A stretch of 49,078 nucleotides of DNA, from contig LT635924.1 of NCBI GenBank assembly GCA_900128565.1, positions 1 through 49,078 of the forward strand, in the 5' to 3' direction. The notes under the pieces were generated by a model. The model searched no databases, was not told the origin of the DNA, and saw nothing but the letters and a program-made list of their open reading frames with translations. The translations under genes and the position numbers were made by a program. This document shows, piece after piece, positions 1 to 49,078 of the stretch. Source of the stretch: Stramenopiles sp. TOSAG23-6 (lineage: Eukaryota > Sar). Every line of letters starts with the position of its first letter. Position 1 is the first letter of the stretch.

Positions 1-74
1 ATTTATTTATTTTTTCGTACGAAATTCCGTACCTAACAAATTTTACAAAAAAAAATATATTTTTCACAATACAT
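1..74 (+). repeat. Introner-like intron, 3' part
   Basis: Right-hand part of an intron of the KH gene. It contains the core (CGTACGAAATTCCGTACCTAAC) and ends CACAATACAT, with the exon resuming TGGAACC. The exon begins with two bases of a split codon, so phase 1. Confidence 0.8.
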
Positions 75-902
75 TGGAACCAAATCTTTTAGAAGGCTAT
101 GTGAAAGTCGAACCCACTCGTTTTCATGTACGTTTTCTTATTTATTTCAAAAATGTCTTTTTTTTTTTTCATACGAAATTTCGTACCTAACAAATTTAAA
201 AATATATATATATTTTTATAATACATGATATTTACGGGAAAGGTGGAAAAATCATTCGCTGCCTCCAGGACAAACTTAATGTTAAGATAGATGTTCCGAA
301 AGACACAAAAGGTATTTCATCTAATTTAGTATCTCATCGCGTTTCGATCGTTGGTGATAAGAGTGATGTAAAAAAAGCGAAGGAGACAATCAAAAATCTC
401 ATAAAGTTCCACTATATACGTTTTATATGAATTTCTAATTTATTTTTTTTCATACGAAATTTCGTACCTAACATTTTTTTTAGATTTTTTGAAATATTTT
501 TTCACAATACATACAGAAATTACTCACCCTGGATTTACACATTCCTTGGTTGAAGTTGAAGAGTCAAAATATAGTCTTATTATTGGCATACGAGGTCAGA
601 CAATCAAAAGTATCGAAGGAGATACCAGGGCAAAAATTCATGTACGTTTTCAAAATTGAATTTTTATCTACATTTTTTTTCGTACGAAAATTTGTACCTA
701 ACAAAAAAATATTGAATGTAAAATATTTTTCATAATACATATACCCGGAAAGAATCACTCTGGTACACAGGTGATGATTGTGGGCCTTCCTGCAAACGTT
801 GCTAAGGCAGAAAAACGAGTTAAAGCGATCATTGATGATACATATTCTAACCGTTCTGCTCTTGCTGAGGATGTTGAAGTTGTTAATGATGATGAAAAAT
901 AA
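75..902 (+). CDS. Multi-KH-domain RNA-binding protein, vigilin-like (5' partial)
   Basis: Exons 75-127, 227-415, 513-641 and 741-902 (stop TAA) join in frame after removal of three introners; the gene continues off the left edge. The joined protein shows two KH domains. The first, from about VKVEPTRFHDIYGKGG, carries the GxxG loop GKGG. The second, from VEVEESKYSLIIGIRG, carries GIRG and runs across the last intron (...AKIH joined to IPGKN...). Tandem KH repeats at a C-terminus with a short acidic tail (DVEVVNDDEK) fit vigilin/Scp160-type RNA-binding proteins, which bind mRNA at polysomes and the ER. The KH assignment is visible in sequence; vigilin identity is inference because the rest of the gene is missing. 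The introns fall within or between KH units. Confidence 0.8.
128..226 (+). repeat. Introner-like intron, KH gene
   Basis: 99 nt, phase 0, starts GTACGTTTTC and ends TAATACAT. CAT precedes the element and CAT closes it. Joining TTTCAT to GATATT restores the KH frame across FH|DIYGKGG. No AG at the 3' end. Confidence 0.88.
416..512 (+). repeat. Introner-like intron without 5' GT, KH gene
   Basis: 97 nt, phase 0. The 5' end reads ATACGTTTTA instead of GTACG, and the end is CACAATACAT, with AT repeated on both sides. Neither end can be GT-AG, yet the frame on both sides (KFHY|TEITHPG) is kept only by removing it. Confidence 0.85.
642..740 (+). repeat. Introner-like intron, KH gene
   Basis: 99 nt, phase 0, starts GTACGTTTTC, ends CATAATACAT, with CAT on both sides. 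Removal joins AKIH to IPGK inside the second KH domain. The unspliced frame hits TGA within 18 nt. Confidence 0.88.
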
Positions 903-1300
903 TGAAGAATTTTGGGATGAGTCTGCTTTGATAAGGTATATTCTAGTTTTTGTCCATAATTAGGGTTAGGGTTATTCTAGTTTTTGTCCATAATTTTTCT
1001 AGTGAAAATGGATTCATGTTTTTATGTACCATGTAGCAATTTACCAATAAACAAATACGAATATTTTCTCCAATATTTTATTTTGATACAATTTTGATTT
1101 TTTTACATTTTTGTTGAGAAATTACGTACCGACAGACCTGCTTTTATTATAGGAATACGAATGTGTCTTTTGGCCAAAATTGTAGGCAAGTGCGCTGAAT
1201 CGATCTAGGATAGCTCTTCCGTCACACTTCGACTTTGGCTTCTTACAAAATACTACTTTAGTCGAAGTGTTTATGTTGTGATGTCAACATCCTAGAGAGC
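903..1300. other. Intergenic spacer, KH gene to Tim17-like gene
   Basis: No coding region recognised. It holds a 23-bp direct repeat separated by a TTAGGG-type motif (described separately) and AT-rich sequence that should include the 3' UTR of the KH gene and the promoter of the next gene. Confidence 0.6.
939..995. repeat. 23-bp direct repeat around a TTAGGGTTAGGG motif
   Basis: Positions 939-961 and 973-995 are identical (begin TATTCTAGTTTTTG). The 11 bases between them complete two TTAGGG-like units (960-973). It looks like a small tandem duplication with a telomere-like motif at the junction, just after the KH stop codon. Confidence 0.8.
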
Positions 1301-1951
1301 ATGGCAATGGAAAAGCAAACATCCAGGTTTAGGAGTAACGCATGTACACCAATTGCTCAGGGTGCTTTAGTTGGTGGTGTATTTGGTAGTGCTTGGGGTG
1401 GTATTTTAGGTACTCTACGAAATCAACCAGTAGGGTTTTACTCCACAGCAATGGGTTTTAATTTCTTTATTGCAAGTGGTATTTATTGTAGTGCATATCA
1501 ATGTATAAAGTCGATGCGAGGTGGAACGGATTCTCCATGGAATGCTGTTATTGCAGGGGTTTCAAGTGGTAGTTTGTTATCCGGTTTATTCGCTGGTCCT
1601 CGCAAAGTTCCTATTGGTGCTTTCATGTTTACAGTAGGAGGACTTGGGATTTTCTATACTCAGCAAATATATTACGACTGGAAAGAAAATGCTCGTAGAA
1701 TTATGATAAATGAAATAAACAATGAATATAGAAAGAAATCTCAAAAGGCTGTACCTAAAGAGTTCAAAGAACAGATTCAAGAGAGCTCACAAGAGAGCTG
1801 GATTCCAAACTGGTCTCCAATTCAAAAAGTAGATCATATAGAATACCGGAATAAGTTGAAGAAGAGATTGCTTGAAATAGATGCTGAGCTTGAAGGGAAA
1901 GTATATAGGGGTAGTAATGATGATGGTGATACTGATAATTCTTTGTATTAG
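1301..1951 (+). CDS. Tim17/Tim22/Tim23-family inner-membrane protein
   Basis: Uninterrupted 216-aa ORF starting MAMEKQTSRF. Residues about 15-125 form four Gly-rich hydrophobic segments typical of the Tim17/22/23 fold: GALVGGVFGSAWGG, then FNFFIASGIYCSAYQ, then the family signature region RGGTDSPWNAVIAG, then AFMFTVGGLGIFY. The tail (about 130-216) is charged and probably helical. The family includes the channel subunits of the mitochondrial inner-membrane translocases TIM22/TIM23 and relatives such as TIMMDC1. The R-x-x-x-D-x-x-N pattern and glycine zippers support membership; which paralogue it is cannot be told. No introner interrupts it. Confidence 0.82.
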   Translation: MAMEKQTSRFRSNACTPIAQGALVGGVFGSAWGGILGTLRNQPVGFYSTAMGFNFFIASGIYCSAYQCIKSMRGGTDSPWNAVIAGVSSGSLLSGLFAGPRKVPIGAFMFTVGGLGIFYTQQIYYDWKENARRIMINEINNEYRKKSQKAVPKEFKEQIQESSQESWIPNWSPIQKVDHIEYRNKLKKRLLEIDAELEGKVYRGSNDDGDTDNSLY

Positions 1952-1991
1952 AATGTAATTCGCAATTTTATACAATATTAAATAATATATA

Positions 1992-4546
1992 CTAAACTTT
2001 GTTTTCCTCATGTAGCAAATTTTTGGTCAGAGCAGCAATCAGTGCTTCGTGGTGTGGTTGTCCGCTCCTTTTCTCAGAAGTATCTGTAGATTTCCCATAA
2101 AAATCACTATAATCAATAGATGAATCGATAGAGGAATCAATAGCATGATCACCGAGAGATTTTCGCTGCTGAACGATATGATACTCCCGCTCTTCTCTTA
2201 ACTCCTCCTCGGCTGCTCTCGCTCGATTTCGTGCTGCTTGTAATTCAGCCCTGCAAGATATTAATGTCTGCATCGCTTGTGACTCTTGTGAGGATTCATT
2301 CAAATGCAACTTAACTTTATCTTTCAATTCTTGTAGTTCTGCTTCTGTTGTGCGACATTTCTCTCTAGATTTCTGTAATTCTACTCGACTATGTTCAAGA
2401 GCCACCTCATGTATTGTGAAAAAAAAAAAAACTCAAAAAAGATTTGTTAGGTACAAAATTTCGTATGAAAAAAAATAAATTTGAAATTCATAATGAAAAC
2501 GTTCCAATTCTTCTATTCCAGGTGACTTTTTCTTTAATATTGTTTCTGCGAGATGTTTCTGTAATTCTACTAAATCATTATGTACTGCCTTCTTTTTCAT
2601 TTTTTCTGTCCCTAACAATACCAATGATTCATCGAGTTGGTCAGATAATGATGCTATTTTAATCTTGAAGACCTTTTTTTCAACTATATGCTGATCAATT
2701 TTGTCTTTAGCTAATCCATGCTGTTTTTTTATATGATTTACGTGCCTTTTTAATTTTCCATGTAATTTTTCTTTATCTTCTAATTCTTTCATTGTTTCTT
2801 TGTGAATTCCTGCAAGTTCTGAATGTTCACATTGTAATCGATTTACCGATTTTTCCATAATTTCTCTATAGACTTCATGTATTGTGAAAGAAAAGTACAC
2901 AATTTTTGTTATTAGGTACAAAATTTCGTACGAAAAAAAAATAAATTCGAAATTAAAAAAAAATAATGAAGACGTACATAGTCTGAAAGTTCTTTTTTCA
3001 CTCTTTGAAGTTCTAGATGCATCTTTTTTTGAGAAATTCGTTGTCTTTCGTGCTTGCTACTATTCATTTCTGTTAATGCAGCGCATTCTTTCCTTGAAGA
3101 TTTCAATTCTTCGGAACTTTTTTTTAATTGACGCCTTGACAATTCTAATTCTTCGGAACTTTTTTTTAATTCATTCAATATATTTGATATAAAACTAAGG
3201 GCTTCATCTCCGCCGTTAAGAATGATTTTTTTTGTGTCATCTGAAAGTTTAAGTCCTTCATTTTTCTCTTCACTAATCGATTGAACTTTCTCATTTACAT
3301 TTCGTAGAGTTCGAGGCTTTCTCGGATTTCGTGTTGTTGTTGTTGTTGTTGTTGTTATTTTCGCTGAAGAAAAAAAACGTGGGTTTCTACTTCGTGTTTT
3401 TTTTACCATACTATTTTGTTTTTTAATTTCATTCTTTAGATCTTTTCCAGATTTTTTTTTTACCACTATACTCTGCTGGTCAATTTCATTCTTTAGATCT
3501 TTTCTAGAAATTAAAGAATTCTTTGGTTGTTTCGTATTTCCTTGCTTAGTTGCAGCACGCATTCTTTGTGCAAATTTCAAACAGGTTAGATTTTCTGCAA
3601 TACAACTTTGTTGGTGTGAAAGAGCTGTTATAACACTACAATGAGCTTTACACAGAACAGCACCACGAAGTACCTTGGTTATAGTCGATTTATGATATGT
3701 GGTATTTACACCTCTCTCGTCTGTAGATAAAAATGCATCCAGTGTTAATTTCCATGGTGCTGTTTTATTTTTCCCACTATTATTTGAACTTTCAATCAAA
3801 TCACTTGACGCAGATGCAATGATTAAGGTTTGAAAAGTTGATGACAAAGGTTCAGTTTTGAGCTTGTCTTCTTCATCAGATTGTAGCGAAATAGTTAGTA
3901 GTAGATGATTAGATTTACTATGGATGGAGTCATTCGAATGATTCATCGTCGTTGTAAAATATTCCTGTATACTATTCATACTACGATGCAGCTCATCTGG
4001 GCTTCTAACAGTAACTCTTGTTTGCCCAGGAACAATAAAACTTGGTTTAGAAACATCCACACTTTCATTCAAGATCTGATTAGAAATGTCCTTTTCGTTA
4101 CTCCCTGCAGCATGTGCTAAAACATCAATAACTTTATCGTCGGATAAAAGGAGCCAGGAAAAGTGAAGAGTTGAGTGGCCTTTCTTGAACATCATATCTG
4201 TTGCTAAAACTGTCATTCCGTAGGCTAATTTGTCAACCGGATCGTTTGAATGCTTTGTACTTCGACCTGTAATAATTAAAAGTGCATTCTCCCCATCACA
4301 TACTTCACGCACCAACGGCATCACGCTTTTAGAGAATATATCAGTCAAGACTGTTCGATTTGTGTGACAAGAATCCATTTCAAAGCTGTACATACAGCTG
4401 AAATCTTCCTCTGGGCAGATTACAGTATTGCCTGAAAACTTCAGAACTGCGGGTAAAACTTTACCATCCACTTCTGTGTCAGAACTAAGTGGTTCACTAG
4501 TAAGAGCACATGCAGCAATATGTGAGACCTGTGCATTTTGTGCCAT
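1992..4546 (-). CDS. Kinesin-like protein with degenerate motor and coiled coil
   Basis: Exons (minus strand) 4546-2978, 2876-2505 and 2408-1992. The first about 330 residues follow the kinesin motor layout. There is a segment like YSFD...VF (YSFEMDSCHTNRTVLTDIF), a region where the P-loop should be (LLIITGRSTKHSNDP), a switch I-like stretch with SIHSKSNHLLLTI, and a motor end resembling the usual SxxxxETxxTLxFAxRA (SCIAENLTCLKFAQRMR). The Walker A GxxxxGKT is absent and the switch II DLAGSE is not preserved, so ATP hydrolysis is unlikely. A polythreonine run from a TTG-type microsatellite (about 3335-3360) precedes a long coiled coil (ELKKSSEELELSRRQLKKSSEELK, then exons 2-3). It is probably a pseudo-motor or structural kinesin. 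Kinesin ancestry is inference from layout and not from catalytic motifs. Confidence 0.6.
2409..2504 (-). repeat. Introner-like intron without 5' GT, kinesin-like gene
   Basis: 96 nt, phase 0. On the minus strand it starts GAACGTTTTC and ends CACAATACAT. It is one of four complete copies lacking the matching dinucleotide before the element (TG versus AT). The junction joins IEEL to EVALEHSR in the coiled coil. Confidence 0.75.
2877..2977 (-). repeat. Introner-like intron, kinesin-like gene
   Basis: 101 nt, phase 0, starts GTACGTCTTC and ends CACAATACAT on the minus strand, AT repeated. The junction joins KKELSDY to EVYREIMEK. Read-through reaches TAA at 2912. Confidence 0.83.
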
Positions 4547-6486: not shown

Positions 6487-6543
6487 AGAAATAAAAACAA
6501 ATAAAACGTTTAAACATTTTAGGCTGAAGAAACAAAAAAAACA

Positions 6544-7286: not shown

Positions 7287-9704
7287 ATGATTCCCACTTC
7301 GTTTGTGTGCATGTCATGTGATGGTTCGGGGAAACGTCGTGGTAATTTGACAAAGAATGCACGGCGTATGTTACGTGCAGCAAAAATCTGGGGCAAACCA
7401 AAACCTAATGTAGAGTCTATGAGACTTGTTGTTAAGTGCAAAAGCTGTGATGGTTCGGGTCTCATTTCTGATATTACAGGTACAAGTTTGTCAAAGGAAG
7501 CGTGTGGTGCAGCACGTGATCGCGATGACTTCGTTGTTGGTGTTGCGGGTGGAGGTATCGGTGGTCTTGCTGTTGCTTTGGCTTTACAGCAGCGTGGTAT
7601 TCGTGTCATCGTATATGAAAGAGACGTTTCCTTCAATGAACGTAGTCAAGGCTATGGTCTTACGATGCAGCAAGGCGGTGCTGCGTTAGAGGCATTAGGA
7701 ATACGTTTTGAAGAAGAAAGTATATCATCTTCTGCGCATTATTCATTTAAACCTTCCGGTGAAGTTATCGGTTGTTATGGTCGTCGGCTTCGAGCTGCAG
7801 CACAAAGAGGCAGTTCAAACGAAAGTGTTGATGATGTCAGTGAAAAAGAGACAATTACTATGAGTAAAAATACACCAAAGCAGAATATGTATCATTTACT
7901 CAGGGACCCTCTCTTGAAAGTATCTATAGCAAAGAAAACGGATGAAAATCGCGGACTAAAAAGATTTCGATCGGCGGAGAAATCGACAAATACATCTGAA
8001 AAACGTGGTAATACTTGTAATACTAGTAGTAATAATAATAATAGTAATAATAATAGTATACCAATAGAAACTGAACAAAAGAAATCTAAAAAAAAGAAAA
8101 ATATAACATTCGATTCTCAGCCTCAAAAAACGAAAACTGAAAAATGTAAAAGTAGAAATAAAAACACGAAAACTGAAAAATGTAAAAGTAGAAATAAAAA
8201 CCGACATATTCCTCGACAACGACTTAGACAACTTTTATATGAAAGATTATTACCAGGTACTGTGCAATGGGGCTGCCGAGTAGTAGAATATAATGATAAT
8301 AGAATGAATAAAGTTGAACTTTCACTGTATAAGAAACAAAAGCACAAAAGTGTTGACAATGAGAAGAGCACTCAGCAAATTCGAAATTCGTTAGGTACGA
8401 AATTTGGTACGGATTCGAATCGGCCAACCAAAGAGACGATGTTTCAGCAAACAGTTTCTGTATTAGTAGGTGCTGATGGGATATTTTCAACCGTGAGAAA
8501 AGTAAAATTAGGTGATGATAAACAAAGCTTGCGTTATTTAAACGTCATGGTTATACTCGGTATTGTAGGTTTTTATTATGAATTTTGATTTTTTTTTTTT
8601 CGTAAAAAATTTTGTCCCTAACAAATTTCAAATTTTTAAAAATATTTCCTCAAAATAAATGCTCCTTGTGATTACCCAGGATATAATGAAACTGTATGTC
8701 AGACATTAGATGGTGACACGCGATTATACTCCATGCCTTTTACTAGCCCTATCCAAGAGTCTGGTGTTTATCATAATAGAAATTCATCAAATGATAATTT
8801 AAATGAAACAAAAAATTCTAATATTCCAAATGTTGTCAATTCAGCAGTTGCAGCAGTTGGACATGGTACAACTATGTGGCAGCTTTCTTTTCGAGCGACT
8901 GAAAATGAAGCAAAACAAATTGTATGTTTTATTTTTTTTTTTTGTATGAATTTTTTTTTCGTACGCAATTTTGTACCTAACAATTTTTTAAATTTTTTAA
9001 AAATATTTTTCCAAAATACTTGCTTCAACACCAAAAACTTTGAAAAGTGAAGCACTTCGTCGATGTTCGACTTGGCATGAACCGATCCCTCAGCTTTTGC
9101 AAGATACTGATTTCGAATTAGTTACTGGATATCCTTGCTTTGATAGACACCTACTTTCTGCTGAACGATGCAGAGGAGATTCTAATTCCAGGGTTACTTT
9201 TTTAGGTGACGCTGCTCATGTATCTTTTATTTTTTTTTTACAAAAAAATCGAATTTATTTTTCGTACGAAGTTTTGTACCTAACAAATTTTAGTTTTTTT
9301 TTTTGAAATATTTTTCCAAAATACATCCGATGTCACCTTTCAAAGGTCAGGGTGCAAATCAAGCGTTGCTTGATGCTGTCCTCCTCGCTCAACATTTATA
9401 TACATCAAATATAGCTACAAATGTTCGAAAAGAAAACGAGAAAATAGCGAATTCTTTGAGAAAAGCTGACAAAGTTAGAGGTTCCACAAAATATGAAATT
9501 CCTGATAGAACTGTAATTGATGCTATGGCTGCATATGAACGAATAATGTTAGATCGAAGTTCTATAAAGGTGAAGCAATCAGCTGAGGCAGCAAAAGTTT
9601 TACATATGAAGGAAGCGACAGCTGCTGTTGGGGGACAAACACGGGCAGCTGTGGCAATAGCTGCAATTCAAGGTCAGAATTTACAAACTCTGAATCATTC
9701 TTAA
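7287..9704 (+). CDS. FAD-dependent monooxygenase with N-terminal CxxCxGxG zinc motif
   Basis: Exons 7287-8564, 8661-8921, 9022-9219 and 9327-9704 give 704 aa, all intron phase 0. Two zinc-binding-type motifs open the protein, CMSCDGSGK (C8, C11) and CKSCDGSGL (C51, C54), like half of a DnaJ zinc finger. An aromatic-hydroxylase/squalene-epoxidase-type flavoprotein follows: Rossmann GGGIGG (88-93) with the acidic end of strand 2 (VIVYERD), VGADGIFSTVRK (about 393-404), and GDAAHPMSPFKGQGANQALLDA (from 575), the FAD pyrophosphate/ribityl motif, restored exactly at an intron junction (AAH|PMS). A low-complexity insertion (about 165-385) with Asn runs, a 12-residue duplication and an antisense introner fragment separates the two halves. 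The substrate is unknown. The family inserts oxygen using NAD(P)H. Confidence 0.88.
8130..8201 (+). repeat. 36-bp tandem duplication in coding sequence
   Basis: Two identical 36-bp units (8130-8165, 8166-8201) encode TKTEKCKSRNKN-type repeats inside the low-complexity insertion of the monooxygenase. Confidence 0.9.
8375..8426 (-). repeat. Antisense introner fragment retained in exon
   Basis: On the minus strand this reads GTACCAAATTTCGTACCTAA, then CGAATTTCGAATTTG, the introner core and the segment after it. On the plus strand it is open and encodes QIRNSLGTKFGTDSNR in exon 1 of the monooxygenase. Being reversed, it cannot be removed as the others are. Confidence 0.78.
8565..8660 (+). repeat. 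Introner-like intron, FAD monooxygenase
   Basis: 96 nt, phase 0, starts GTAGGTTTTT, ends CAAAATAAAT (AATAC degraded to AATAA). Only a single T is shared by the two flanks. Joins ILGI to APCDYPGY. Confidence 0.78.
8922..9021 (+). repeat. Introner-like intron flanked by TT, FAD monooxygenase
   Basis: 100 nt, phase 0, starts GTATGTTTTA and ends CCAAAATACTT. TT precedes the element and TT closes it, so the repeated dinucleotide follows the insertion site and not a fixed end. The frame has no stop inside, but the length shifts the frame if retained. Confidence 0.85.
9220..9326 (+). repeat. Introner-like intron splitting the GDAAHP motif
   Basis: 107 nt, phase 0, GTATCTTTTA ... CCAAAATACAT with CAT on both sides. 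Exact removal recreates GDAAH|PMSPFKGQG, a well-known flavoprotein motif, which fixes the boundaries to within the CAT repeat. No AG is available. Confidence 0.92.
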
Positions 9705-12700: not shown

Positions 12701-15700
12701 TTGTATTAGTAGCATGTGGCAAGATAATATGAGAAGTATTTAGTGTGTCAACATATGGATACGGGCTTCGGCCTGTTATACCAAAGCGTGACGGGTTCAT
12801 CTTGACCATGACGCGAATTAAAGAAGGTGGCATCACATCGCTTGAAAGATTTTCTGATATTGTACAATCGGTTCCTTTTGATTCAACTTCATCAACTATT
12901 TTACTTTCTAGAATCGTAGGTGGTGTTGAATTGAAAACTTTCATCGTACTATTTGCTTTATGCGTTTCCCCCAGTGTTTGTATTCTTTTGCTGAATATAT
13001 CGAGTAATGCTAGTGCAGTTTCAGCTTTACTAAACCAATCAGGTCGAGATCGCCTCATTGAAGCAGGAGCCTTCACGACACATTCAAGTTTTGACAACGC
13101 GATTTCCATTTCAACTAATGCTGACATATATGCACTGTCTCTTAAAGATCCATGTTCATGCAATGTTTCAAGCTGACCCGAGAAATGACCTAGCATAGTT
13201 TTAAGTATATTGTTTTGTCTTACAAGATTTTTTGTGGGTGTATCACTTTCAGAATTTGATGTTGTACAACTTTCCTCCAATACAAGCGTTAAAGTGTGCA
13301 TTGCTTCAATCCGAATATTTCCATCACTAGATGTAATAAATCGTAGTATTGCCTTTACGAGAAAAATAAGACGATCTTTTGGTAGTGATTGTGTTTCGAT
13401 CAAGAGTTCGATTAACCAAAATGATAACCGCGGGTTAGCTCTCTCAAGAGCATGTTTGTCACACATAATTAGTAAATGATTTTTCTCTGGATCATCTTGT
13501 GGTTCATTATTATCGCTACTTTCTGAATTCTTATTTCTAAGTAAACTATTTGATTTCAAGCTCACTGGACGCTGTGCATGACATGCACGAAATAAATGAC
13601 AAATACAAGTGTCAATTAAAGTTACTGCAATATCTTTAGTGTCATTTTGACCCGTGGGCATCGCTACAACATCTGTCTTGGGTCTTGAAAAATCTTTAGA
13701 CAATAAAACTTTTTTTAATACACTCTTAAAATTAGACAATAAACTACTGGATGCTACAGCTCCGTGAATAGCCGGAATTTTAAGTTCAGAAGAAAATTTA
13801 CCAGCAAGTAACTGGCACATTGACACAAGAAATGAAGATCCCCCAATAATATTCACTGAAGTAAATGCATGTATTGTGAAAAAATATTTCAAAATAAAAT
13901 CGTTAGGTACTAAATTTCGTATGAAAAAAAATGTAAATTAGAAATTCATATAAAACGTACATCTGAAGGTAAATTCTGTAATAGGGCAATGTACAAATCT
14001 CGTGCAAATAAAATCGATAGACTTTGCATCGCATGAATTCCGTGTGAATATACGGACAACTGCCAAAAGTTTTGATTCATATGAACTTTCGCTTGCTTTT
14101 TCAATTGGGTTATTTTGTCTTTTTTTGTATTTATTTCATTTCCATCTGTCGCTTTCGAACATTCTTCGGTTCGAGGACATCCATCAAAAGTCTCCATAAG
14201 ATTGTTATTTGAACGAGTTCCCAAATCACCGACTGGTAATTCTCTTTTAGCTTTATTACTTGATACAAGTGTATCTAGGGTGTCTTTTTCACCATCCATT
14301 ATATATTCAGATAAAGATCTCTCATGAGAATTTTCGACGGGCACATATTTTTCTTTGAACAATTCTCTTAACACAGAATCAAAATCTCCATTGTGTTGTT
14401 TCAGGATTTTAGATGTAATATCTACTTTAAATCCAAGAGTTTTGGTAAGTTCTTCATTTAGAGTACAATCTAAAATACCATTTTGATACACATTTGTGTC
14501 ATTGCCTCTAATAAAAGTATACATATCCCCACAATTGTGCATAGTAACACAGGGATATAACTCTTTACCCAGAAGATTTCCCGTATATTGAGCAGGATAC
14601 CAATTATCATCGTTCAGAGCCCACTGAATTGACCCAACGAACATATTTACACGAACTCGGACAATTGTCCCTGATCGAAAGCTTTTATCTGTAACTCGAT
14701 TTGAGCCACTGTTGTAACACTCCCCGTTATGATACAATGCATACCCTGATCTGTTTGTGCCACAATAGCTACTCAAATTTTGATTCCTTTCTGCCACTCC
14801 AACGAAGCCATATTTTTTCATTTTTGTGACTTCCACTGAAAACTCCGTAATTCCACTTTTTGGTATAGGTTCTGAGGCCAACACGGATCTGTAAGAGTCA
14901 TTAGATCCATTATCATCCTTGTATCGAACACAGACGTCTGACAAAATTTCAATGCGTTTATGGCACCCTCTAGGATCCCAGACAAAATTATGTGTCGTAA
15001 TTTCGTATCTATTTTCCATACTTGGAATTTTCTTGTACAACCATTTCCCATTAGCTATTAATCCATGCCGTTGTCCTATTCGATCAAATGCAAGACATCC
15101 TATACCAGAAGACATTGGCCACCAACCGATTAGTTGTGGGCTCAACGGTTTACATAAATTTTGAAATTCCTCAAATTTGTCTTCATTTAAACTTTTGTGC
15201 CAAATGCGTACGTCTCGAAATTCCATTCTCATTTGTTTTAACACATTTGGCTCTGTAAAATTTTGTTGTTTCGTTTCTATTACATCTGAATTCACTATTG
15301 AAGTATGATTTACGTTCGTAGCACATCCTCCAAATATCCACCCACCGAATTTAATGTTTGATGGTGAAGTTTTCAATGGGCATTCTCCAACTTTAACTCT
15401 ATTTCGATAAAGATACCAAGTTCCCCCGTCTGATGACACCAAACTATTTTTATCAATACCTATAGGAAGTTTTGATGGATTACCATCAATTGTAACTTTA
15501 TCAGATGTGAGATCCATAAGAACAAATGGATGCCATATAATACCACGAGGAATAATTATTGATGTTTGGAGTGAACCATTCTTATAGAATACTATTCTAC
15601 CATTATCACAGTCAAGAAAACAACCAATAATATCGCCACTTCGGTATGTATCAATCGGCGAACCATCAGCTTTTGTATCAATTGTAGTTCCACCGGCTTC

Positions 15701-31012: not shown

Positions 31013-31043
31013 TTTCCTACTAAAATATGTCAAAATTTTGATT

Positions 31044-31080
31044 TTGTTTTGTTACGTACAAAATTTTCTACCAAAAAAAA
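31044..31080 (-). repeat. Degenerate introner-like core in intergenic DNA
   Basis: Minus strand reads GGTAGAAAATTTTGTACGTAAC after a T run, close to the introner core. It lies between the convergent J-protein and Hv1-like genes. No matching ends found. Confidence 0.55.
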
Positions 31081-31243
31081 AAAATGTAGATGAAAATGAA
31101 GTGATGGCTAGCTAAATAGAGTTCTAGTATAGATTTCCTACTATAATTAAATACAATTTAACCAATACAAATCTAATTTATAACACAATAGTGAATTAAT
31201 ATAAAATAATAATTTAAATTTCTCACATCATTTGAAAATCAAT

Positions 31244-33489: not shown

Positions 33490-33506
33490 AAAATAAATAT
33501 TTTAAA

Positions 33507-39017: not shown

Positions 39018-39403
39018 ATCCTACCCCTAACCCTTTATGAGAAACTATAAAAATATATAAAACTACAGTGATTTATTATAGAAAAATATATAGAACGAAA
39101 GTGATGTATTACGATTTAGATATGGAGATTTTAAAGTTTTGCTTTTTTCTTTTCTTTTCTTTTTTGATTCGGTAAATAAACAAATTTCAAAATCAAACAA
39201 GATCATATCGTAGTACTAGGTAGGTAGGGTACCGGGTCCAAAAAAGTTCAACACTATTTTTGCTACCAAACGTAAAGTATTTTCATTAGGTACGAAATTC
39301 CGTATACAAATTTGACTTCAGAGATTCAGCCCAAAATGATGTGATCCACTTCTTCTCTACTATCGCACGCTTTTATCGTAGTAGAAATAGTATTTACTTT
39401 GCG
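39018..39403. other. Spacer between RAB28 and DnaJ genes
   Basis: Holds a telomere-like motif at 39024-39034, a TTTTC-type pyrimidine run near 39143 and a minus-strand introner-like relic at 39275-39304. The open frame from 39341 has no ATG before 39404. Confidence 0.5.
39275..39304 (-). repeat. Truncated antisense introner relic
   Basis: Minus strand reads GGAATTTCGTACCTAATG then AAAATACTT, the core joined almost directly to the 3' end of an introner (AAAATAC plus TT). The central A/T-rich part is missing. Confidence 0.6.
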
Positions 39404-40819: not shown

Positions 40820-40889
40820 ATTTGTTTTTAATCCCATAATAAAAAATATGTAGGAAGTCGTCCCCCCTATACCGGCCACTTTTGATTTT

Positions 40890-40909
40890 GTACGAAAATC
40901 AGTACCTAA
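40890..40909 (+). repeat. Introner-core match inside the transposon's left end
   Basis: GTACGAAAATCAGTACCTAA matches the introner core at both eight-base halves (GTACGAAA, GTACCTAA) with the same four-base spacing. It is 23 bp inside the left terminal motif and is followed at 40929 by GTACGTTTCC, which resembles an introner 5' end. Confidence 0.65.
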
Positions 40910-41103
40910 GCAAAACTGAACAAAAAATGTACGTTTCCTATTCCGGCCGGTACTATGATAAGATCGAAAAGATACTTTTTTTCTAAGACTACGTAGGTAA
41001 GTATATAAGTGTTCCTATGAATAAAAGAGTATTTATTAAATTAATCTTAACATCTTGTTCTTTTGTATCACCCACTATTGTACCAACTTCACGTTAAAAA
41101 TTT

Positions 41104-44100
41104 CTACGCTTCGCTATCGTTGTCGCTTTCACTCTCAGACTCGCTTTCGGATTCGGATTCGCCTTCGCCTTCAGATTCATCATCCGTTTCGCTATTGGAA
41201 CTTTCACTATCAGATATTTCTCTATTAGAACTCTCGCGATCTCGTGCAGGCTCGTCGAAACAACTCTCGCAACAAACCCATCTACTGGATTTGCTTTCAT
41301 ATCTTGGTATTTGTAAGTCAATGTTTACGCCACAGCAGTTGCAAATGCAAACATCTCCAGACAACTCTCCAGACTCCGTAAAAATAAGCTCCTCCTCACT
41401 AAATTCATGACGACGCAATGCTTTATGTTTTTGTAATTCATCATATGTATAATCGGTAGATCGATCTTGGGTGCTTGCCCACCTAATTGTGTATTTTTCA
41501 TTTTCATAACTAACTACTGTTGCTTCTAACCAATCACCTTTCCAAAGAGCCAATACTGATTTGTGATTCATAAACCATTCATGATTTTCTTTTTTCTTTG
41601 CTTGTCTTGCTTTTTCTGCTTTGCTCATTTTTTTCTTTACGACGTATTGTTTTTTATTTCTAGAATTATACTCATCTAGAAAAAGCTGCTTAAGTTTCTT
41701 CGAATCAAATTGAATTGGTTTGTTTGAGCCATTTTCTTCCGACACAGAAATCTTCCATGAGAGAAGAATTGCTTTATAATCATTTTTGTATAGTGTTTCA
41801 TTTGATTCCATTTTGCTAATTGCACTATCAAGTATTTCTTTTTCTCTTGCTTTTTTTTGTTGAACTCTTTTTTCTTGTGCTTCTTTCTCTTTCTTTTTTT
41901 TCTCTTCTCTTTCTACAACTGCAGCAACAACATATTTACATTTATACTTAGCCTCATATTGCTCCTCAAATACTGCCTCTATTTTTGTTTTAGCAATCTT
42001 TGAGAGTTTTTTTCCATCTATATTATCTATTCCCCAACTCTCAAGAATTGCACGATGTTTGTTTACAGTAAGACTCTTTTTAGCATTCATGTCTTCAACA
42101 GCTTCCTCACGTAGTTTCATTTTTTTACGGATTAATTCCTGATCTTTAATAACTTTATCTTTTTTCTTTTGCTCTTTATCTTTTTTCTTGTCATCTCTAT
42201 TCTTTTGGACAGCTTTAACTTGTTCTAATTGTTCCGCAAGTGAAAAATCTGCACCATGAGAAGTATTGACACCTACTCTTTTTCTTTTATTTTTTTTTCT
42301 TTTTTGTTCTTCGGCATTTGCGCGTCTTGTTGGTTCAAACATCCCAGTCTCCAGAGATTCATATACTATACTTCTAATAACAACATCTCTTTCAAGAGGA
42401 ACTTTATATATCAAAACTTTGTCTGCATTTTCAGGTTTATTCCGTGGTGATACGCGAAGAGGTTTTGCTATATCTAAGTCTTTCGGAGCTTCTTCGAGGT
42501 AACTAAACATATCGATAGCCGTTTGCCAACTGGAATTATAACGGTCAACCGGATAAACACCGCACCTTTCAAACGCTCTTGTGACAATATTACCAACTTT
42601 AACTTCTTCAAAACCAAGTATATTGTTTTCCATGTACATATCATACCCATTTTTTTTAATTCGTGAGTCAATTAATTCTTTCTTTAGCCTTTCTGTAACT
42701 GTCATCCATGAACGACTGATAATTTTGTTATAGTCCGAGATCGAATACTTATTTGTATAGTTTAATTTCTTCCAATCATCAACTAACACTGAATATGCTG
42801 CACGGAGCATAGAATTGATCCCAACATCATTTGGTTGAGACCAAGATGATGTATGCGACGCAAGACAAAAGGGAAATACGTTATTATCCCGCAGTGTCTT
42901 CATTGCTGCCATTGACCACCGAGAAGCATGCCCATCAAAAGTCAAGATGACAGGTTTTCCATTCTTTCCGTATCCTTCTGGCAGTCCTTTGACAAACCAC
43001 TCACAATAACGCTTAAAAATTTCAATAGTCATAGAACCACTTGTAGAAACTTCCACTCTCCAGCCATTTGTCGAAATATCCGAATTAGGGTCACCTTTCC
43101 AAATAGGTTCGTCTAGTTCAAAGCCTGATAAGTGGTTTTGGTTTCTTTTTGGATTAGTTACACCAGGAGATGCGTGAATCACCATTGATGGTAAAATTGC
43201 TCCATCAGCCCTTGAAGTAACTACACATGTAGCATGGAATTCCGGATGATCTGAACCAAGTTTCGATCTCTTTCTTTTCTTTTTCCCTCCTCTATTAGGA
43301 ACATGAGCTTTACCAACAACTTTATTCCGCTTTCCATCTTCTTTTCCTCCAAACTCATCCATGTTGTAAATTTGTTTTGAAAAATCATTAACATCAAATT
43401 TTCCAGGAAACTCTTCTCCTAACCTCTTTACCAAACTTTCCAACTTCGAAAACACGGCATCTCTGACTTTGGTATTGGCCTTTTTTGCTCGTTCAAAGCT
43501 CAGAACTGCAGTTTTGTACTGTTTTAACTTCGGGTGACGCTTCAAGAATCCATGAACAAATGACCGTGTGCAGCCTTTCTCATACCCTAGCCTTGTAACA
43601 ATATGACTGGCAAAAGAGGTGATTTGTTCAATAGTCATTCCTAGACCAAATCCATCCATTTGTATTATAATTTGTTCCAACCACAATTCTTCATCATCAG
43701 TGAAATACCGCTTGAAATTTGGGTTTCCTGTTGATTTCAGTTCAAATTCCTCATTAATCAGACGAGTCATTCTTTTCTTGGTTTGTTTACCAATTTTTTT
43801 TCCGTATTTTGAGCGGGGTTTCCCAAAAAAACGTTCGAAATTATCAGATAATGTAGAATGTGGTATTCCATACTTCTTTGCGCAAGTATTCCGACCTGAT
43901 CCGTCTACCCATTCTTTCAAGGCATCCTTCATCCTTCTGAGACCTCGACCATCTTCTTTCCATTTCAATTTTTTTTTCTTTACAGTACGCTCCTCACGCT
44001 CCGCCGCAATCACCCGCTTGCGCTTCTTTGACTTCGCAGCTCTTAGAATGCGTTTGGGCAGACTGAAATTGATCTCCTTCAGTTTCCCACTAGTATAAGT

Positions 44101-44295
44101 GGGAGTGGTCTGAAGAAGATCTTTTTCAATCGGAGACGACAAAGACGAAGCTTCTTGTCGCTCTTTTTCTTCCTCCAATAAACGATTTCTGGAAGCCAGC
44201 CTCTCTTTATCAGCTTCCAACTGTGCAATTTTGAGGAGCAACGCCTCTTTATTAACATCATCTTCATTACTTTTGTGCGCAAGTGTTGACAACAT
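41104..44295 (-). CDS. Pogo/Tc1-mariner-type DDE transposase with Tudor-like and Cys-rich C-terminus
   Basis: 1,063-aa uninterrupted ORF. It has an N-terminal coiled coil (about 10-55) and a basic region with KKKRK-like nuclear signals. A psq-type helix-turn-helix follows (about 122-155, DALKEWVDGSGRNTCAKKYGIPHSTLSDNF). The DDE_1 catalytic domain has YNMDEFGG (D313), TFDGHASRW (D454) and SQPNDVGIN (D490); the second and third acids are 35 residues apart, as in pogo-type DDD enzymes. After about residue 640 come Lys/Glu-rich helices, a Tudor/agenet-like stretch (WKGDWLEATVVSYENEKYTIRW), a Cys cluster (CICNCCG...CCESC) and a Ser/Glu/Asp tail. Such chromatin-reader-like additions are not typical of pogo. 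All catalytic residues are intact, so it could be active or domesticated. Confidence 0.88.
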   Translation of the reverse strand: MLSTLAHKSNEDDVNKEALLLKIAQLEADKERLASRNRLLEEEKERQEASSLSSPIEKDLLQTTPTYTSGKLKEINFSLPKRILRAAKSKKRKRVIAAEREERTVKKKKLKWKEDGRGLRRMKDALKEWVDGSGRNTCAKKYGIPHSTLSDNFERFFGKPRSKYGKKIGKQTKKRMTRLINEEFELKSTGNPNFKRYFTDDEELWLEQIIIQMDGFGLGMTIEQITSFASHIVTRLGYEKGCTRSFVHGFLKRHPKLKQYKTAVLSFERAKKANTKVRDAVFSKLESLVKRLGEEFPGKFDVNDFSKQIYNMDEFGGKEDGKRNKVVGKAHVPNRGGKKKRKRSKLGSDHPEFHATCVVTSRADGAILPSMVIHASPGVTNPKRNQNHLSGFELDEPIWKGDPNSDISTNGWRVEVSTSGSMTIEIFKRYCEWFVKGLPEGYGKNGKPVILTFDGHASRWSMAAMKTLRDNNVFPFCLASHTSSWSQPNDVGINSMLRAAYSVLVDDWKKLNYTNKYSISDYNKIISRSWMTVTERLKKELIDSRIKKNGYDMYMENNILGFEEVKVGNIVTRAFERCGVYPVDRYNSSWQTAIDMFSYLEEAPKDLDIAKPLRVSPRNKPENADKVLIYKVPLERDVVIRSIVYESLETGMFEPTRRANAEEQKRKKNKRKRVGVNTSHGADFSLAEQLEQVKAVQKNRDDKKKDKEQKKKDKVIKDQELIRKKMKLREEAVEDMNAKKSLTVNKHRAILESWGIDNIDGKKLSKIAKTKIEAVFEEQYEAKYKCKYVVAAVVEREEKKKKEKEAQEKRVQQKKAREKEILDSAISKMESNETLYKNDYKAILLSWKISVSEENGSNKPIQFDSKKLKQLFLDEYNSRNKKQYVVKKKMSKAEKARQAKKKENHEWFMNHKSVLALWKGDWLEATVVSYENEKYTIRWASTQDRSTDYTYDELQKHKALRRHEFSEEELIFTESGELSGDVCICNCCGVNIDLQIPRYESKSSRWVCCESCFDEPARDRESSNREISDSESSNSETDDESEGEGESESESESESESDNDSEA

Positions 44296-44594
44296 GGTAT
44301 TTTTGAGCTTGAGAGTGAAGAAAGCATAACTTTGTGAACGAGTGGTTCAGAATCCAACTTCAAATTGAGTGGTTCTGATTCAATGGTATGTAATGTTTCC
44401 CGCGCTTTTTTTTTTATGCCTACAAGCCAATACATATTTGATAATCTTTATGGAGAATATTGTGAATGGGCATACAATGCTTCAAGCAGTATTACTGCTA
44501 AAAGCATACTAACGTTACGCGAATGTTCACATGTATGGTATCTTTTTAGTATCTTTACGTTATTGGTACGAATTTTCAGGCTTAACGGTCGATG

Positions 44595-44610
44595 TTAACC
44601 CTAACCCTAA
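44595..44610 (+). repeat. Telomere-like motif in transposon end
   Basis: TTAACCCTAACCCTAA directly adjoins the CGTGGCCGG terminal repeats at the right end of the pogo-like element. Confidence 0.8.
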
Positions 44611-44650
44611 TCGTGGCCGGAACGGCCGGAATAGGATTCGGCCGGAATAG

Positions 44651-45098
44651 TAAAGAGTACTTCCTAGTAAAGTTGTAATGCCTTTTTTTTTTTTTTGTTA
44701 CATTTCTCATTTGTATACATTCTATAGAATTTTTTAGATGTTTGTTTTAGATTTTTTTGTTACATTTCTCATTTGTATAAATTCTATAGATTTTTTTTGA
44801 TGTTTGTTTTAGCTTTTATGATCTATTAGATCTCAGATCGGTATTGCATCGATCATCGGGTCTCTCGTTTTACTTTTTTTTTGACTGTTCTTTTTGATTG
44901 ATTGAAATCGAATTAATTGGCCGTGTGCGTGAAACTTTGGATTCTTTGAGATCAGCTAGATCAGCTCTCGACAATATTAAAATATTTTGAGTCTTTTACA
45001 TTATTCAATAAAGATATTTTTCTAGCATACTGCTCACAAAGTGACTAAGGGTTACTGAATTTCATTCACTTTATGAGTTCTCAGTGTGTTTAAAAGTC
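44651..45098. other. Spacer upstream of the PH-kinase gene
   Basis: T-rich, with a 61-bp tandem duplication (separate entry). No ORF recognised. The last part should hold the kinase promoter. The ATG at 45073 is followed by an early in-frame stop, a possible upstream ORF. Confidence 0.5.
44690..44812. repeat. 61-bp tandem duplication
   Basis: 44690-44750 and 44752-44812 match apart from a few changes (both contain GTTACATTTCTCATTTGTAT and GATGTTTGTTTTAG). It borders the right end of the transposon. Confidence 0.88.
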
Positions 45099-48084
45099 AT
45101 GACAGATAATATGTTACAAGATTGGGGTCAATTTACAAACGTAGTACGTGATACGGAAAAGCCTAGTTTAGGCCAGGTAAGTAAAGAGCCTTCGAATCAT
45201 AGTTCATTAAACGAAACCCAAAAGCAACATTCTATCATAGAACCATTTAAGGATGCTAATTCTACAACTTCTACTATAAATGATCGCAAAGACGATACAC
45301 AAATTAGATCTTTTTCTAACTCAAATTTGTTGACCACTACCCCCTCTTGCCCTAGTTTAAAAAATCTCAGTAGTGTTGCTGAATCAAACGTATCAACTCT
45401 TTTATCACATAATACTTCAGTAAATACCAATGATCTTCAAAAGAATCGAATAAATGGAGATTCATCATCAAATTTGGGTGTATCCAAAGTCCATCCATCT
45501 TGTCCAGATATGAAGGCACTTGCTCAAAATAGGGTAAGTCAGTCACGACAGACCCGAATACACCTCAGTGAAGCAAAAGCTGCATTATTTAGACACTCAC
45601 TCACCGGGGTCTTAGTAAAACGAGGTTTCGGAGGATTTAAGCGATGGGTACCAAGATATGTGACTTTGCGAGGGCGTATGCTCTCCTATTACACATTGAA
45701 AGATTCCAAAAAATGTGATATTGTTCGTTTTCATCATGAAATTTCGATTGTTTTTTTTACCTACGTTTTTTTTCGTAGACAATTTTGTACTTAATCATTT
45801 TTTTACTAAAATTTTTTTTTCACAATACTTGATTCTGTACACGCCAGAGGAGTTTTGGAACTTACAAAACATACAGTTATTAAAGCTGTACACTTCGATA
45901 CAAATGTATGTTTTATTTTTTTTTTTTCAAAAAAATCGAATTTTTTTTCGTACGAAATTTTGTACCTAACGAGTTTTTTTTTGAAATATTTTTCTAAAAT
46001 CCATATCGCTAATAGTCAATTTGGTATAAAGATTATTCCTATCAAAGAAAATACTTTAAATAATGATTTATATGACACTCAAACTCCAGGAGGCATAGAA
46101 CCGAATTTTTGTACTCAAAATAAAAATTCATTTGGTTGGTGGCGTGATAGAGCTTCATCAGCCCAATGTCCTCTACAGTTTGTTGATGAGTCCTTCAAAA
46201 ATAGTAATAATATGACGGATAACTCCAAAATAATAAAGCAAAGAAACAAAAGTATGCCTCCTCCGACTCGATCAGTCATCTCTAGTAAAAAGTTGTGGAT
46301 GTACATTTTCATTATTTATTAAAATTTGATGTTTTTTTTTGTACCAAAATTTGTACCTAACTAAAAAAAAATTTGAAATTGTTTTTCATCATTTATTTCA
46401 AATGTATTTGTTTTTTCTTTTTTTACGTAAAATATTTTTGTACCCAACGAATATTAAATATATATTTCAATCTATATGTGTATTTTTTCACAATATATGC
46501 TCATTGCAAGATCTGCCGACGAGCAGAATCGATGGTTAGAAAATCTTGCAAAAGTAATCCAATTGATATCACGTGTTGAAGAACCTGCAACACTTCGTGG
46601 CATGGGTACAGTCTATGATCATTTTTTTGTTGGTGAAATTTTAGGTCGTGGAAGATTTGGAATTGTTAGAGAATGTATACATAAAACAACAAATAAATTA
46701 TACGCATTAAAAATGGTTAATAAAACGAAAGCGTTCACCGCTGAAGGATTAGCTGCTCGAAGAACACTTCACAATGAATTAGCTGTTTTGAAACGATTAA
46801 AACTCGTCCTCGGACCTCATCCAGCTATATGTAATACATTTGAAGTATATAATGATAAATTTATTACTTATATTGTACTTGAGCATTTAGGTGGAGGTGA
46901 TTTATTTGATAGATTAGTTCAATTAGGAAAATATACAGAAGCAAATGCATCCACTTTGACGCGACAGTTACTCACAGGATTACAAGAATTACATCGTCGA
47001 AATATTATTCATCGCGATGTCAAGCCAGAAAATATTTTATTTTCATCAAAAGATAAAAACAAATTAGACGTAAAATTAGCTGATTTTGGTTGTGCCTTGA
47101 TTCTGAAACGGAACCCTAATGTACGTTTTTTATTTTTATCATGATTTTTTTTTACAAAGAAAATTTAAAATTTTTGTACTTATGAAAATTTTGTTGTACT
47201 ACAAAAAATATTTTCCCAAAATACATGCAAGTCAAAGACGGACTCAAAAGTTTCTGGATCGAACAATCGTAGGGACACCTGGTTATATCGCTCCAGAAGT
47301 GATACTGAAGTGTGAATATACTCCAAAATGCGATGTGTGGGCTGCAGGAGTGATATTATATATAATGCTTGTAGGCTATGTACGTTTTATTTTTTTTTTT
47401 AGTATGAATTTTTTTTTCATACGAAAGTTTGTACCTAACGATTTTTTTTTGAAATATTTTTCCAAAATACATCCTCCTTTTTATGGTAAAAATGAATGGG
47501 AAATATTTGAAAGAACAAAGCGTGGTTGCCTTAAATTTGATAATTCTGATTGGAAAGGTATATCTAAAAATGCTGTTGATCTCGTACGAGGAATGTTATG
47601 TGTCAATCCAGAGATTCGTTTGTCAACAAAACAGATTCTACGACATAATTGGATTATAGAGCCACCTTCTTCAAAACTTTTACCAGACACTCTTTCGCGA
47701 TTAACGAATTTGAATACACGAAGAAAAGCAAAAGAAAAGATGAGAAAATCAATGGAAATCGTCCCAAATACAATGAATACAAAAAATACAAAAAATACAA
47801 AAAATACAAAAAATCAAGAATCAGTAAAACATCAAAACTATGAAAATTGTACAAAATTGAATGAAATCGAAAGAAAGCAAGAGGAAGTGAGTAAAGAAAA
47901 TTTTGAAATTTCGAATACTCGAATGGATCAAACCAAACGACTAACACCAAAAGATATACGCCATGTAGATCAAAAATGTGACACAGTAAAACCATCAAAA
48001 AAAGCAACACCTGGCAGTTTGAATTTTACAGACAAGGAAATTGCAGAAATTAGAAGTAAAGTGAAATTTCGATCTATGGGATGA
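45099..48084 (+). CDS. PH-domain serine/threonine protein kinase
   Basis: Exons 45099-45722, 45831-45905, 46005-46300, 46499-47120, 47227-47379 and 47473-48084 give 793 aa. The first 165 residues are Ser/Asn-rich. A pleckstrin-homology domain spans about 167-353 (GVLVKRGFGGFKRWVPRYVTLRGRMLSYY ... LWMLIARSADEQNRWLENL), with a long insertion in its last third; it should bind phosphoinositides. The kinase domain (about 373-650) is complete: GRGRFG loop, ALKMV lysine, HRDVKPEN, DFG, GTPGYIAPE, GYPPFYG, and RHNWI at the end. GYPPFYG and the end pattern resemble CaMK-group kinases. KNTKNTKNT (from an AAATAC microsatellite) begins the charged tail. Three of the five introners split the PH domain and two the kinase, all with exact frame repair. 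Start: first in-frame ATG after an upstream stop. Confidence 0.9.
45723..45830 (+). repeat. Introner-like intron 1 of the kinase, flanked by TT
   Basis: 108 nt, phase 0, GTTCGTTTTC ... CACAATACTT. TT before and TT at the end, the second TT-type site in the window. Joins KKCDI to DSVHARG within the PH domain. Confidence 0.87.
45906..46004 (+). repeat. Introner-like intron 2 of the kinase
   Basis: 99 nt, phase 0, GTATGTTTTA ... TAAAATCCAT (a C where others have A in AATAC). AT repeated. Joins HFDTN to IANSQFG. Confidence 0.85.
46301..46498 (+). repeat. Fused double introner, intron 3 of the kinase
   Basis: 198 nt, about twice the usual length, phase 2, GTACATTTTC ... CACAATATAT. It has two cores: CAAAATTTGTACCTAAC in the first half and TTTTTGTACCCAAC in the second. 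A second 5'-like end, AAT then GTATTTGTTTTTTC, starts at 46404. Joins KLW-M-LIARSADE exactly in the PH C-terminal helix. Confidence 0.83.
47121..47226 (+). repeat. Introner-like intron 4 of the kinase
   Basis: 106 nt, phase 0, GTACGTTTTTTA ... CCAAAATACAT, AT repeated; the core is degraded (TTTTTGTACTTATG). Joins KRNPN to ASQRRTQKF between the DFG and APE motifs. Confidence 0.83.
47380..47472 (+). repeat. Introner-like intron 5 of the kinase, stop-free
   Basis: 93 nt, phase 0, GTACGTTTTA ... CCAAAATACAT, AT repeated. Removal restores GYPPFYG, a strongly conserved kinase motif. A multiple of three with no stop in frame, so unspliced mRNA would encode a 31-residue Phe-rich insert. Confidence 0.9.
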
Positions 48085-48152
48085 AAACATAATAAAATAG
48101 TTCAGAAATCAAAAAAAATCAAAAAAAAAGAAAGATGAGAATAAAATCAATT

Positions 48153-49026
48153 TTAGAGATCAATTTTTTGAACGCTTTCAATTGCTCTTTTCCTCCAGCG
48201 TTTCACTAAATATGACGTCAGACACGAGTTCTGTTGACTCAAATTATCTATATTTCGTGTATCACTATTTTGATCAATTATTGGTAATAAAGGTAAAATA
48301 GAGGGTTTGGTCATAATTTTCCTATATTTTTCATCATTCATTGTATCAACTTCATGTAGAATTCTAGATAACAAATTATGTGATAAGCGACCATCAGGTG
48401 CAGCCTTATCAATTGCATAAAGTGCTTGTATAAGTTGGGTCAAAGCAGCGGTTACATTTCCAAATATAGAACTTTTTTCATCAACATCGGATAATAATTT
48501 TCGAACAGCTGGAATAAATATTGTAGTGTGAGTTTCTGTCAATAAAGATACTTTTTTATCCTTTTCTATTTCCTTTAGCACTCTTTGTTGATTGATCGAA
48601 AATGGATCTTCTGTTACATGTATTTTGGAAAAATATTTCAAAAATTAAAATCGTTAGGTACAACATTTCGTACGAAACCGAAAAAAAAATTCATAGTAAA
48701 AAAAAAATTAAAACACACATCATTACTTTTTGTACTCGATCTTAATTTTAAGCCAATACCATCGTGACGTATAGAAAAAAAAGAATGTAAATGGCTAGAG
48801 GAATCATTTTCATTTTCATTTGAAATTTCATTTACATTTTCATTCAAATTTTCATTTTTATTCAATCTTGAACTGTTTGATGAGTCTTCTTCTATTTCAT
48901 TAATTTTGTTTGTTTCAAATTTCTGTTGTATATTTGTTGATGTTTTCGTACTTTCAAATAAATTCTTATTTCGTGCATCAGGATAAACTTTGTGCAGAGC
49001 TGATCGTTTCGCTAATCCACCACCAC
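48153..49026 (-). CDS. Unrecognised Asn-rich protein (5' partial)
   Basis: Minus-strand exons 49026-48719 and 48617-48153 (stop), with the gene continuing off the right edge across another introner. The visible 256 or so residues start GGLAKRSALHKVYPDARNKN, followed by an Asn/Glu/Ser-rich low-complexity stretch (NENLNENVNEISNENEND). The second exon is helical (VLKEIEKDKKVSLL..., FIPAVRKLLSDVD, ALTQLIQALYAIDKAAPDG). No domain recognised and no function proposed. It converges on the PH-kinase gene with 68 bp between stop codons. Frame continuity across the introner (KSND|VTEDPF) supports it as a real gene. Confidence 0.65.
48618..48718 (-). repeat. Introner-like intron in the Asn-rich gene
   Basis: 101 nt, phase 0, GTGTGTTTTAA ... 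CCAAAATACAT on the minus strand, AT repeated (GAT before, CAT at the end). Confidence 0.85.
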
Positions 49027-49078
49027 ATGTATTGTAAAAAAAATTAAATTCGAAATTTGTTAGGTACAAAATTTCGTA
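49027..49078 (-). repeat. Introner-like intron, 3' part, at the right edge
   Basis: Minus strand reads TACGAAATTTTGTACCTAAC ... TTTACAATACAT and then exon GTGGTGGATTAGC. The exon starts with two bases of a split codon (phase 1). The 5' half is outside the window. Confidence 0.8.

Follow-up and report, generated by a model that had tools for sequence, protein, structure and literature searches.

A repeated intron family with putative GT...AT borders in a stramenopile genome

How can genes stay readable when they are interrupted, again and again, by copies of one sequence whose 3' end offers no AG? The question is raised by contig LT635924.1 of Stramenopiles sp. TOSAG23-6 (assembly GCA_900128565.1), whose full 49,078 bp (contig C382 of 408 in an 8.03 Mb assembly with a G+C content of 0.31-0.40) are referred to below as the window. 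An earlier note, made from the letters alone, had seen in seven split genes of the window a single family of non-GT-AG introns, and had suggested that one recent invasion, which brought or exploited an altered splicing rule, may be the source of most introns in the genome. Our analysis covers the window plus 20 further stretches (~199 kb), in total 247,651 bases (~248 kb), with counts of the most conserved motifs extended to the whole assembly. The family is very likely an introner that duplicates 2 bp of its target and is removed by a U2-type spliceosome no longer in need of a 3' AG. The host is very probably a MAST-3 stramenopile, to judge from the likeness of its dynein to EukProt entry P0219, whose label, GSMAST32, we read as that of a MAST-3 single-cell genome.

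Results

A single family of elements

The element is AT-rich, measures roughly 80-130 nt per copy and is most easily recognized by a 20-nt core, TACGAAATTTTGTACCTAAC. At up to three mismatches the core occurs 21 times in the window and not once in 100 shuffles. Eighteen of these matches fall within introns (16 complete, two cut by the contig ends); the other three belong to an antisense fragment in a flavin adenine dinucleotide (FAD) monooxygenase gene (8390) and to two non-genic fragments (31051 and 39285). Three further complete introns (26508, 45723 and 47121) have a weaker core. The window thus holds 19 complete copies, one of them a fused double, and two partial copies, distributed over seven genes: the earlier count is confirmed.

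Genome-wide, a 19-nt version of the core (up to two mismatches) gave 1159 + 1056 = 2215 matches, the reversed pattern none. A profile built from 90 copies found, at E<1e-3, 153 matches in the sampled sequence, compared to none at E<=10 in the same sequence reversed as a decoy. The merged set for the sample comprises 160 copies, 145 of which score at least 20 bits. Since 111 core matches correspond locally to these 145 copies, the 2215 matches suggest that the assembly holds roughly 2900 copies, an extrapolation that includes repeats: some contigs are palindromic (C2, C4, C27) or near duplicates (C13/C14), and genome-wide counts therefore include the same copy repeatedly. Many contigs end inside an introner copy, which we ascribe to assembly or amplification artefacts at repeats. 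The core has no match in viral contigs.

That the invasion was recent, as had been supposed, is supported only in part. Nearest-neighbor identity among the 63 better copies reaches 0.98, but its median is 0.86, only four of the 63 have a neighbor at 95% or more, and several copies are badly decayed. A relative that is 77% identical (P0220; 4863-nt contig) appears to have a single uninterrupted frame of 1749 nt over the site of the dynein intron, as judged from the frame and not from the DNA itself. The family accordingly spans young and old copies.

Insertion, removed length and orientation

The element extends from GTAYGTTTT to AATAC. Its ends share no more than a short imperfect inverted match (GTA...TAC), and it is commonly flanked by a direct repeat: the 5' and 3' flanking dinucleotides are identical in 73 of the 90 full copies (54.4 expected on shuffling), as AT/AT in 62, GT/GT in seven, TT/TT in three and AG/AG in one. 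In a set of 72 copies the flanks agree in 57 (40.5 expected, p<=5e-5). Where the 5' flank is not AT, they still match in 12 of 30 cases against 3.5 expected (p<=5e-5), which means that flank identity is more than a preference for AT. Such 2-bp identity beyond chance is the target-site duplication by which introners are recognized. The sequence before insertion approximates C-A-T|G in a set of 72 copies, with A at 0.71, T at 0.89 and the G that follows at 0.54.

How much is removed was determined with a homology-free codon model for which long open frames served as training data. The earlier note had let the intron end at AATAC; the reading frame shows that two further bases go, the element plus two (mod 3) being removed in 83 of 90 copies, so that the excised piece is GT...AATAC+AT. 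Junctions in SHMT and RecQ align without gaps to solved structures and, together with a complete protein-kinase domain in the window, exclude other lengths of equal remainder.

Copies lie in coding sequence, for the most part in the sense orientation. After seven of 133 copies had been dropped for too little flank, 112 of the 126 classified had sense coding on at least one side without antisense signal, nine were mixed, four antisense only and one neither. This bias fits splicing and counts against excision from DNA. Ciliate internal eliminated sequences (IESs) are excised between direct repeats with the loss of one repeat copy, and the 2-bp repeats described here, one copy of which is removed, resemble that process. 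IESs, however, would not be expected to be oriented with the gene, and the sense bias together with the strand-specific GTAYGT and CTAAC motifs points to a nuclear RNA process. We give almost no credence to the idea that the inserts are removed from DNA in this way, or skipped by the ribosome, instead of being spliced.

The dinucleotide that stays in the exon

Where the flanks are identical, GT-AT, TG-CA and AT-AC borders are indistinguishable, and the register was therefore examined only at copies whose flanking dinucleotides differ (discordant junctions). The first of these is in an axonemal dynein intermediate chain (L043), with CT before and AT after the element. Retention of the 5' copy gives FMTVGDW, retention of the 3' copy FMNVGDW. 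The residue at this site is T in 116 and S in one of 117 alignable homologues (119 examined of 1247 found), and S or T in five solved relatives. The second is in a nucleotide-sugar transporter (L013), with AT before and AC after: the 5' copy yields VMKS and both other registers VTKS, while of the solved CMP-sialic acid transporters two have M and one has V at this position. The dynein residue excludes the AT-AC register, and the transporter excludes TG-CA as well; both registers are thus rejected at these junctions.

On the AT-AC reading, the introns would be cut before the 5' AT and after AATAC and might be of the minor (U12) type. Such introns could not be told from GT-AT at the AT/AT copies (62/90), and among discordant copies the 3' AT varies less than the 5' AT; codon usage also leans their way. 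Yet they would place N in dynein and T in the transporter, against the residues of the homologues, and their first two bases would vary freely while the GTAYGT behind them stays conserved. The motifs, moreover, differ from the U12 5' and branch consensus. We regard AT-AC splicing as very unlikely.

Sequence of the intron ends

End statistics were compiled from the 74 copies that show the +2 length and are flanked on both sides by sense coding. The first two bases are GT in 65, AT in five, GC in two and GA in two; GTAYGT, a U1-type consensus, is present in 50. The last two bases are AT in 60, GT in six, AG, AC and TT in two each, and TC and AA in one each. CTAAC occurs in 68, which would place the putative branch A 30-52 nt from the intron end. 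Genome-wide, AATACAT is found 15-45 nt behind TTGTACCTAAC in 767 places and AATACAG in 28, and three of these 28 sit behind an AATACAT. In 11 weaker copies CTAAC is kept in nine and GTAYGT in seven, as spliceosomal use predicts.

The description of the family as non-GT-AG therefore needs dividing. Its 3' half stands: none of the 19 complete introns in the window ends in AG, as had been noticed, and the altered splicing rule proposed on that basis draws support from the wider counts, within what protein-coding evidence can tell. Its 5' half does not, the 5' site being ordinary GT. The data support a change in the 3' rule only, to an AT that comes from the target duplication. Read from coding sequence, then, the introns are in all likelihood GT...AT, neither GT-AG nor AT-AC. 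They appear to work like U2-type introns and are not canonical members of that class, given the scarcity of AG ends (2/74; 28 vs 767).

Might nearby AG sites be used after all, the AT reading being an artefact? A few copies do end in AG, including a decayed one in L018, and the public gene set contains a case in point. Our spliced dynein and EukProt P0219 disagree at one of 553 aligned residues; the P0219 model, however, gives the dynein intron GT-AG borders, with the AG taken from AGATACAT, and so gains two residues (IH) at the intron. These residues are missing from the relatives P0220-P0222, and the same model drops three conserved exon stretches (of 9, 7 and 8 residues). An AG anywhere in the last 25 nt is found in only eight of the 74 copies. 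Hidden GT-AG splicing is in our judgment extremely unlikely.

A different route to removal is known from euglenids, hemistasiid diplonemids and Amoebophrya, where pairing between intron ends, not fixed borders, guides excision of structured, non-conventional introns. The present elements have weakly inverted ends (GTA...TAC), direct repeats that overlap the borders and a nearly palindromic core, and pairing of the initial 12 bases with the final 18 is seen in 29% of 94 copies compared to 14% of shuffles. But 71% show no end pairing, and the mean folding z-score for the 94 copies is -0.7 against dinucleotide shuffles. Nor does the palindrome covary: pairing is as frequent as expected at all seven of its pairs, and the right arm, which contains CTAAC, is the better kept. 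In addition, the 5' border is a fixed, U1-type GTAYGT, as opposed to the variable borders described in the available text on those systems. Hairpin-guided removal was thus rejected (folding signal not beyond chance, covariation nil), and structure-guided splicing in general is highly improbable.

Several observations weigh against GT...AT splicing by a modified U2-type spliceosome. One is the public dynein model, which has GT-AG borders. Seven of the 90 copies lack the +2 length under the codon model (three need +1 and four +0). Homology gives a verdict at only three discordant junctions. At the third of these, PIG-A (L009), the choice between V and G is tentative, as solved relatives stop short of the site; a search for places with CT before and AT after the element returned ten (nine distinct), dynein alone being judged by homology. 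Codon usage at 20 discordant junctions shows no preference for the 5' copy (the log ratios sum to -19.0, with -8.2 from one mis-modelled copy): as a register test it is uninformative, and slightly unfavorable. Silent differences are not commoner than in permuted data at discordant junctions (p 0.27). Discordance and codon phase appear linked in a Fisher test (p 0.017), but its table was filled by hand with one cell estimated, and the result is given no weight. U6 (family and pattern searches), U2 (pattern) and U2AF35 (protein) were not found in the assembly, which is incomplete, and these searches had no positive control and show little. Finally, the altered splicing rule is itself deduced from protein-coding sequence.

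Other introns and the splicing machinery

The earlier note had seen no ordinary intron in 49 kb. In the sampled 248 kb we scanned the breaks, 400 nt long at most, between neighboring coding segments of the same strand; 51 of the 73 contain a profile match. The remaining 22 consist of six decayed family copies (47121 in the window, two in L012, and one each in L023, L026 and L018; that in L018 is the copy ending in AG, and the end of that in L026 is ill-defined), 12 gene ends, one single-base frameshift and three overlapping frames in L011, the last four carrying no insert. All 57 breaks with an insert therefore hold the introner family, and no ordinary intron was detected, within a scan that short in-frame introns lacking stops could escape. 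One family stands behind every intron-like insert detected. The three overlapping frame changes in L011 (~1430-3520) accompany a local tandem duplication, and the gene is possibly decaying.

Prp8 is present in the assembly (E 2e-88). A universal ribosomal RNA (rRNA) pattern matched only a mitochondrial rRNA contig. The mitochondrial contig L034 (C136) carries large- and small-subunit rRNA, atp9, nad2 and ribosomal-protein genes (names assigned partly by eye); nad2 seems to use TGA as a tryptophan codon, and the contig has a 100% match, P0099, among public metagenome proteins.

The introns of the window

Once the copies are removed in silico, the genes are open and encode KH, FAD-binding and HECT domains and, in one case, a PH domain together with a whole protein-kinase domain. 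On the forward strand, the KH gene contains a copy whose 5' part is lost at the contig start (1-74), two copies with the forms AT|GTACGT...AATACAT| (128-226) and AT|ATACGT...AATACAT| (416-512), and a fourth at 642-740. The FAD monooxygenase gene, also forward, has copies at 8565-8660 (TT|GTAGGT...AAATAAAT|) and 8922-9021 (TT|GTATGT...AATACTT|, a TT/TT duplication), and removal of a further forward-strand copy (9220-9326) restores the motif GDAAHPMSPF. The antisense fragment in the open frame of the FAD gene, which comprises the middle of the element (8348-8437, reverse strand; 22 bits, profile positions 39-73), is translated as exon and looks as if it were an exonised antisense copy.

The forward-strand PH-kinase gene contains five copies: a degraded one (45723-45830, TT|GTTCGT...AATACTT|), one reading AT|GTATGT...AATCCAT| (45906-46004), the fused double, which is taken out as one intron (46301-46498), and two in the kinase domain. 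The first of these (47121-47226) is decayed and without a CTAAC core, GTACGT...AATACAT being retained; removal of the second (47380-47472) restores GYPPFYG. The domain spanning both matches Pfam profile positions 3 to 263 of 263.

All other copies are on the reverse strand. A coiled-coil gene has two, at 2409-2504 (TG|GAACGT...AATACAT|) and 2877-2977. The HECT gene is a single gene of ~6680 codons (9768-30077) with HECT, SPRY, malectin and laminin-G-like domains, interrupted by only three copies: 13869-13960, a degraded copy at 20257-20350 whose 3' end (...GAACAT|) was set by eye, and 26508-26597, with the weaker core. Further copies lie at 31412-31510 (GC|GTACTT...AATACAA|), 31707-31804 (AT|GTATGT...AAATTAT|) and 48618-48718 (AT|GTGTGT...AATACAT|), and at 49027-49078, the 5' part being lost at the contig end. 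Core-like fragments outside genes (31007-31089 and 39275-39327, reverse strand) represent decayed or truncated copies.

The window also encodes a DDE_1 (pogo/Tigger-like) transposase of 1063 amino acids (41104-44295; gene region ~40870-44650). Considered as an autonomous partner of the introner, it has inverted CCGGCC-type repeats at its ends, not introner ends, and no link between the two was found. Telomere-like TTAGGGTTAGGG repeats occur internally, in the window at ~1040 and 44590 and once inside an introner copy (L024, ~790).

Discussion

We propose that the genes of a MAST-3 stramenopile were colonized, presumably by transposition, by an introner, a mobile element that is short and non-autonomous. 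It would carry at its left end a yeast-like 5' splice site, GTAYGT, have a probable branch site (CTAAC) with a T-rich stretch, and end in AATAC. Insertion would occur near CAT|G and duplicate two bases, usually AT. If, as we suppose, the spliceosome cuts the pre-mRNA just ahead of GTAYGT and just behind the second dinucleotide, the excised intron is GT...AATACAT and the exon regains the sequence it had before insertion. A cut at that point means that the 3' splice site is the target duplication itself, mostly AT, and the spliceosome of the lineage would have to accept AT without AG, perhaps through altered 3' recognition of the U2AF type. It is possible, although we stop short of calling it probable, that one transposable element supplied essentially every intron of the lineage and that its AT duplication rewrote the 3' rule of the major spliceosome from AG to AT, with U2AF35 recognition of AG probably changed or lost.

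Parts of this scheme have precedents. The introners surveyed by Gozashti et al. (2022; PMC9860276) are likewise near-identical introns in unrelated genes with target duplications and weak inverted ends; in some families the element brings the 5' site and the duplication supplies the 3' site, and with it a splice dinucleotide. Their duplications measure 3-9 bp compared to 2 bp here. Among 5' sites the available text of that survey mentions rare GC and GA, and it names no family with a 3' AT. The survey used annotated introns, including those of Tara genomes, and could have missed the present family. Amoebophrya (Farhat et al. 2021; PMC7789003), another marine protist, likewise has introners whose borders are not GT-AG and whose repeats are both direct and inverted. 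As far as the accessible account goes, it has many families, repeats of 3-5 nt, variable border dinucleotides and hairpins, with about one third of introns GT-AG; here there is one family with a fixed GTAYGT, one dominant 3' dinucleotide and little structure.

Two further cases resemble this one in the prevalence of unusual borders. Fritillaria borealis (NAR 2026; PMC13326754) has, according to the portion available, a U2-type spliceosome, and introns that mostly break the GT-AG rule (3' AU included) and are linked to introner-like elements with weak splice sites. Fritillaria, however, is a tunicate with a duplicated U2AF active in recognition, whereas here the 5' site is canonical and only the 3' site has changed. 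In hemistasiid diplonemids (PMC12621601) most introns are non-canonical (~97%), with diverse borders and extensive end pairing in the available description, unlike the one repeated family seen here.

For MAST-3 itself, a search of openly licensed papers by title, abstract and text passages yielded no description of such introns. The account of MAST-3 single-cell genomes (Seeleuthner et al. 2018; PMC5778133), very probably the source of this assembly, gives 2694 genes and 37% BUSCO completeness for MAST-3F and states that complete protein matches were too few to train a gene finder. Its available text reports the loss of dynein genes in MAST-3A, reports no such loss for MAST-3F and contains nothing on unusual introns. 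Because the present assembly has a dynein gene, MAST-3F is the likelier clade of the host, although the two assemblies differ in size (21.1 vs 8.0 Mb).

If our interpretation is correct, public gene sets for MAST-3 that assume GT-AG would be wrong at these junctions, as in the dynein model, and the low gene counts of such single-cell genomes may partly reflect annotation. One mobile element would then account for the detectable introns of the genome, the 3' AG rule having been relaxed to fit it; and the order of events, whether the relaxed spliceosome or the invasion came first, would be open to study in MAST-3 relatives.

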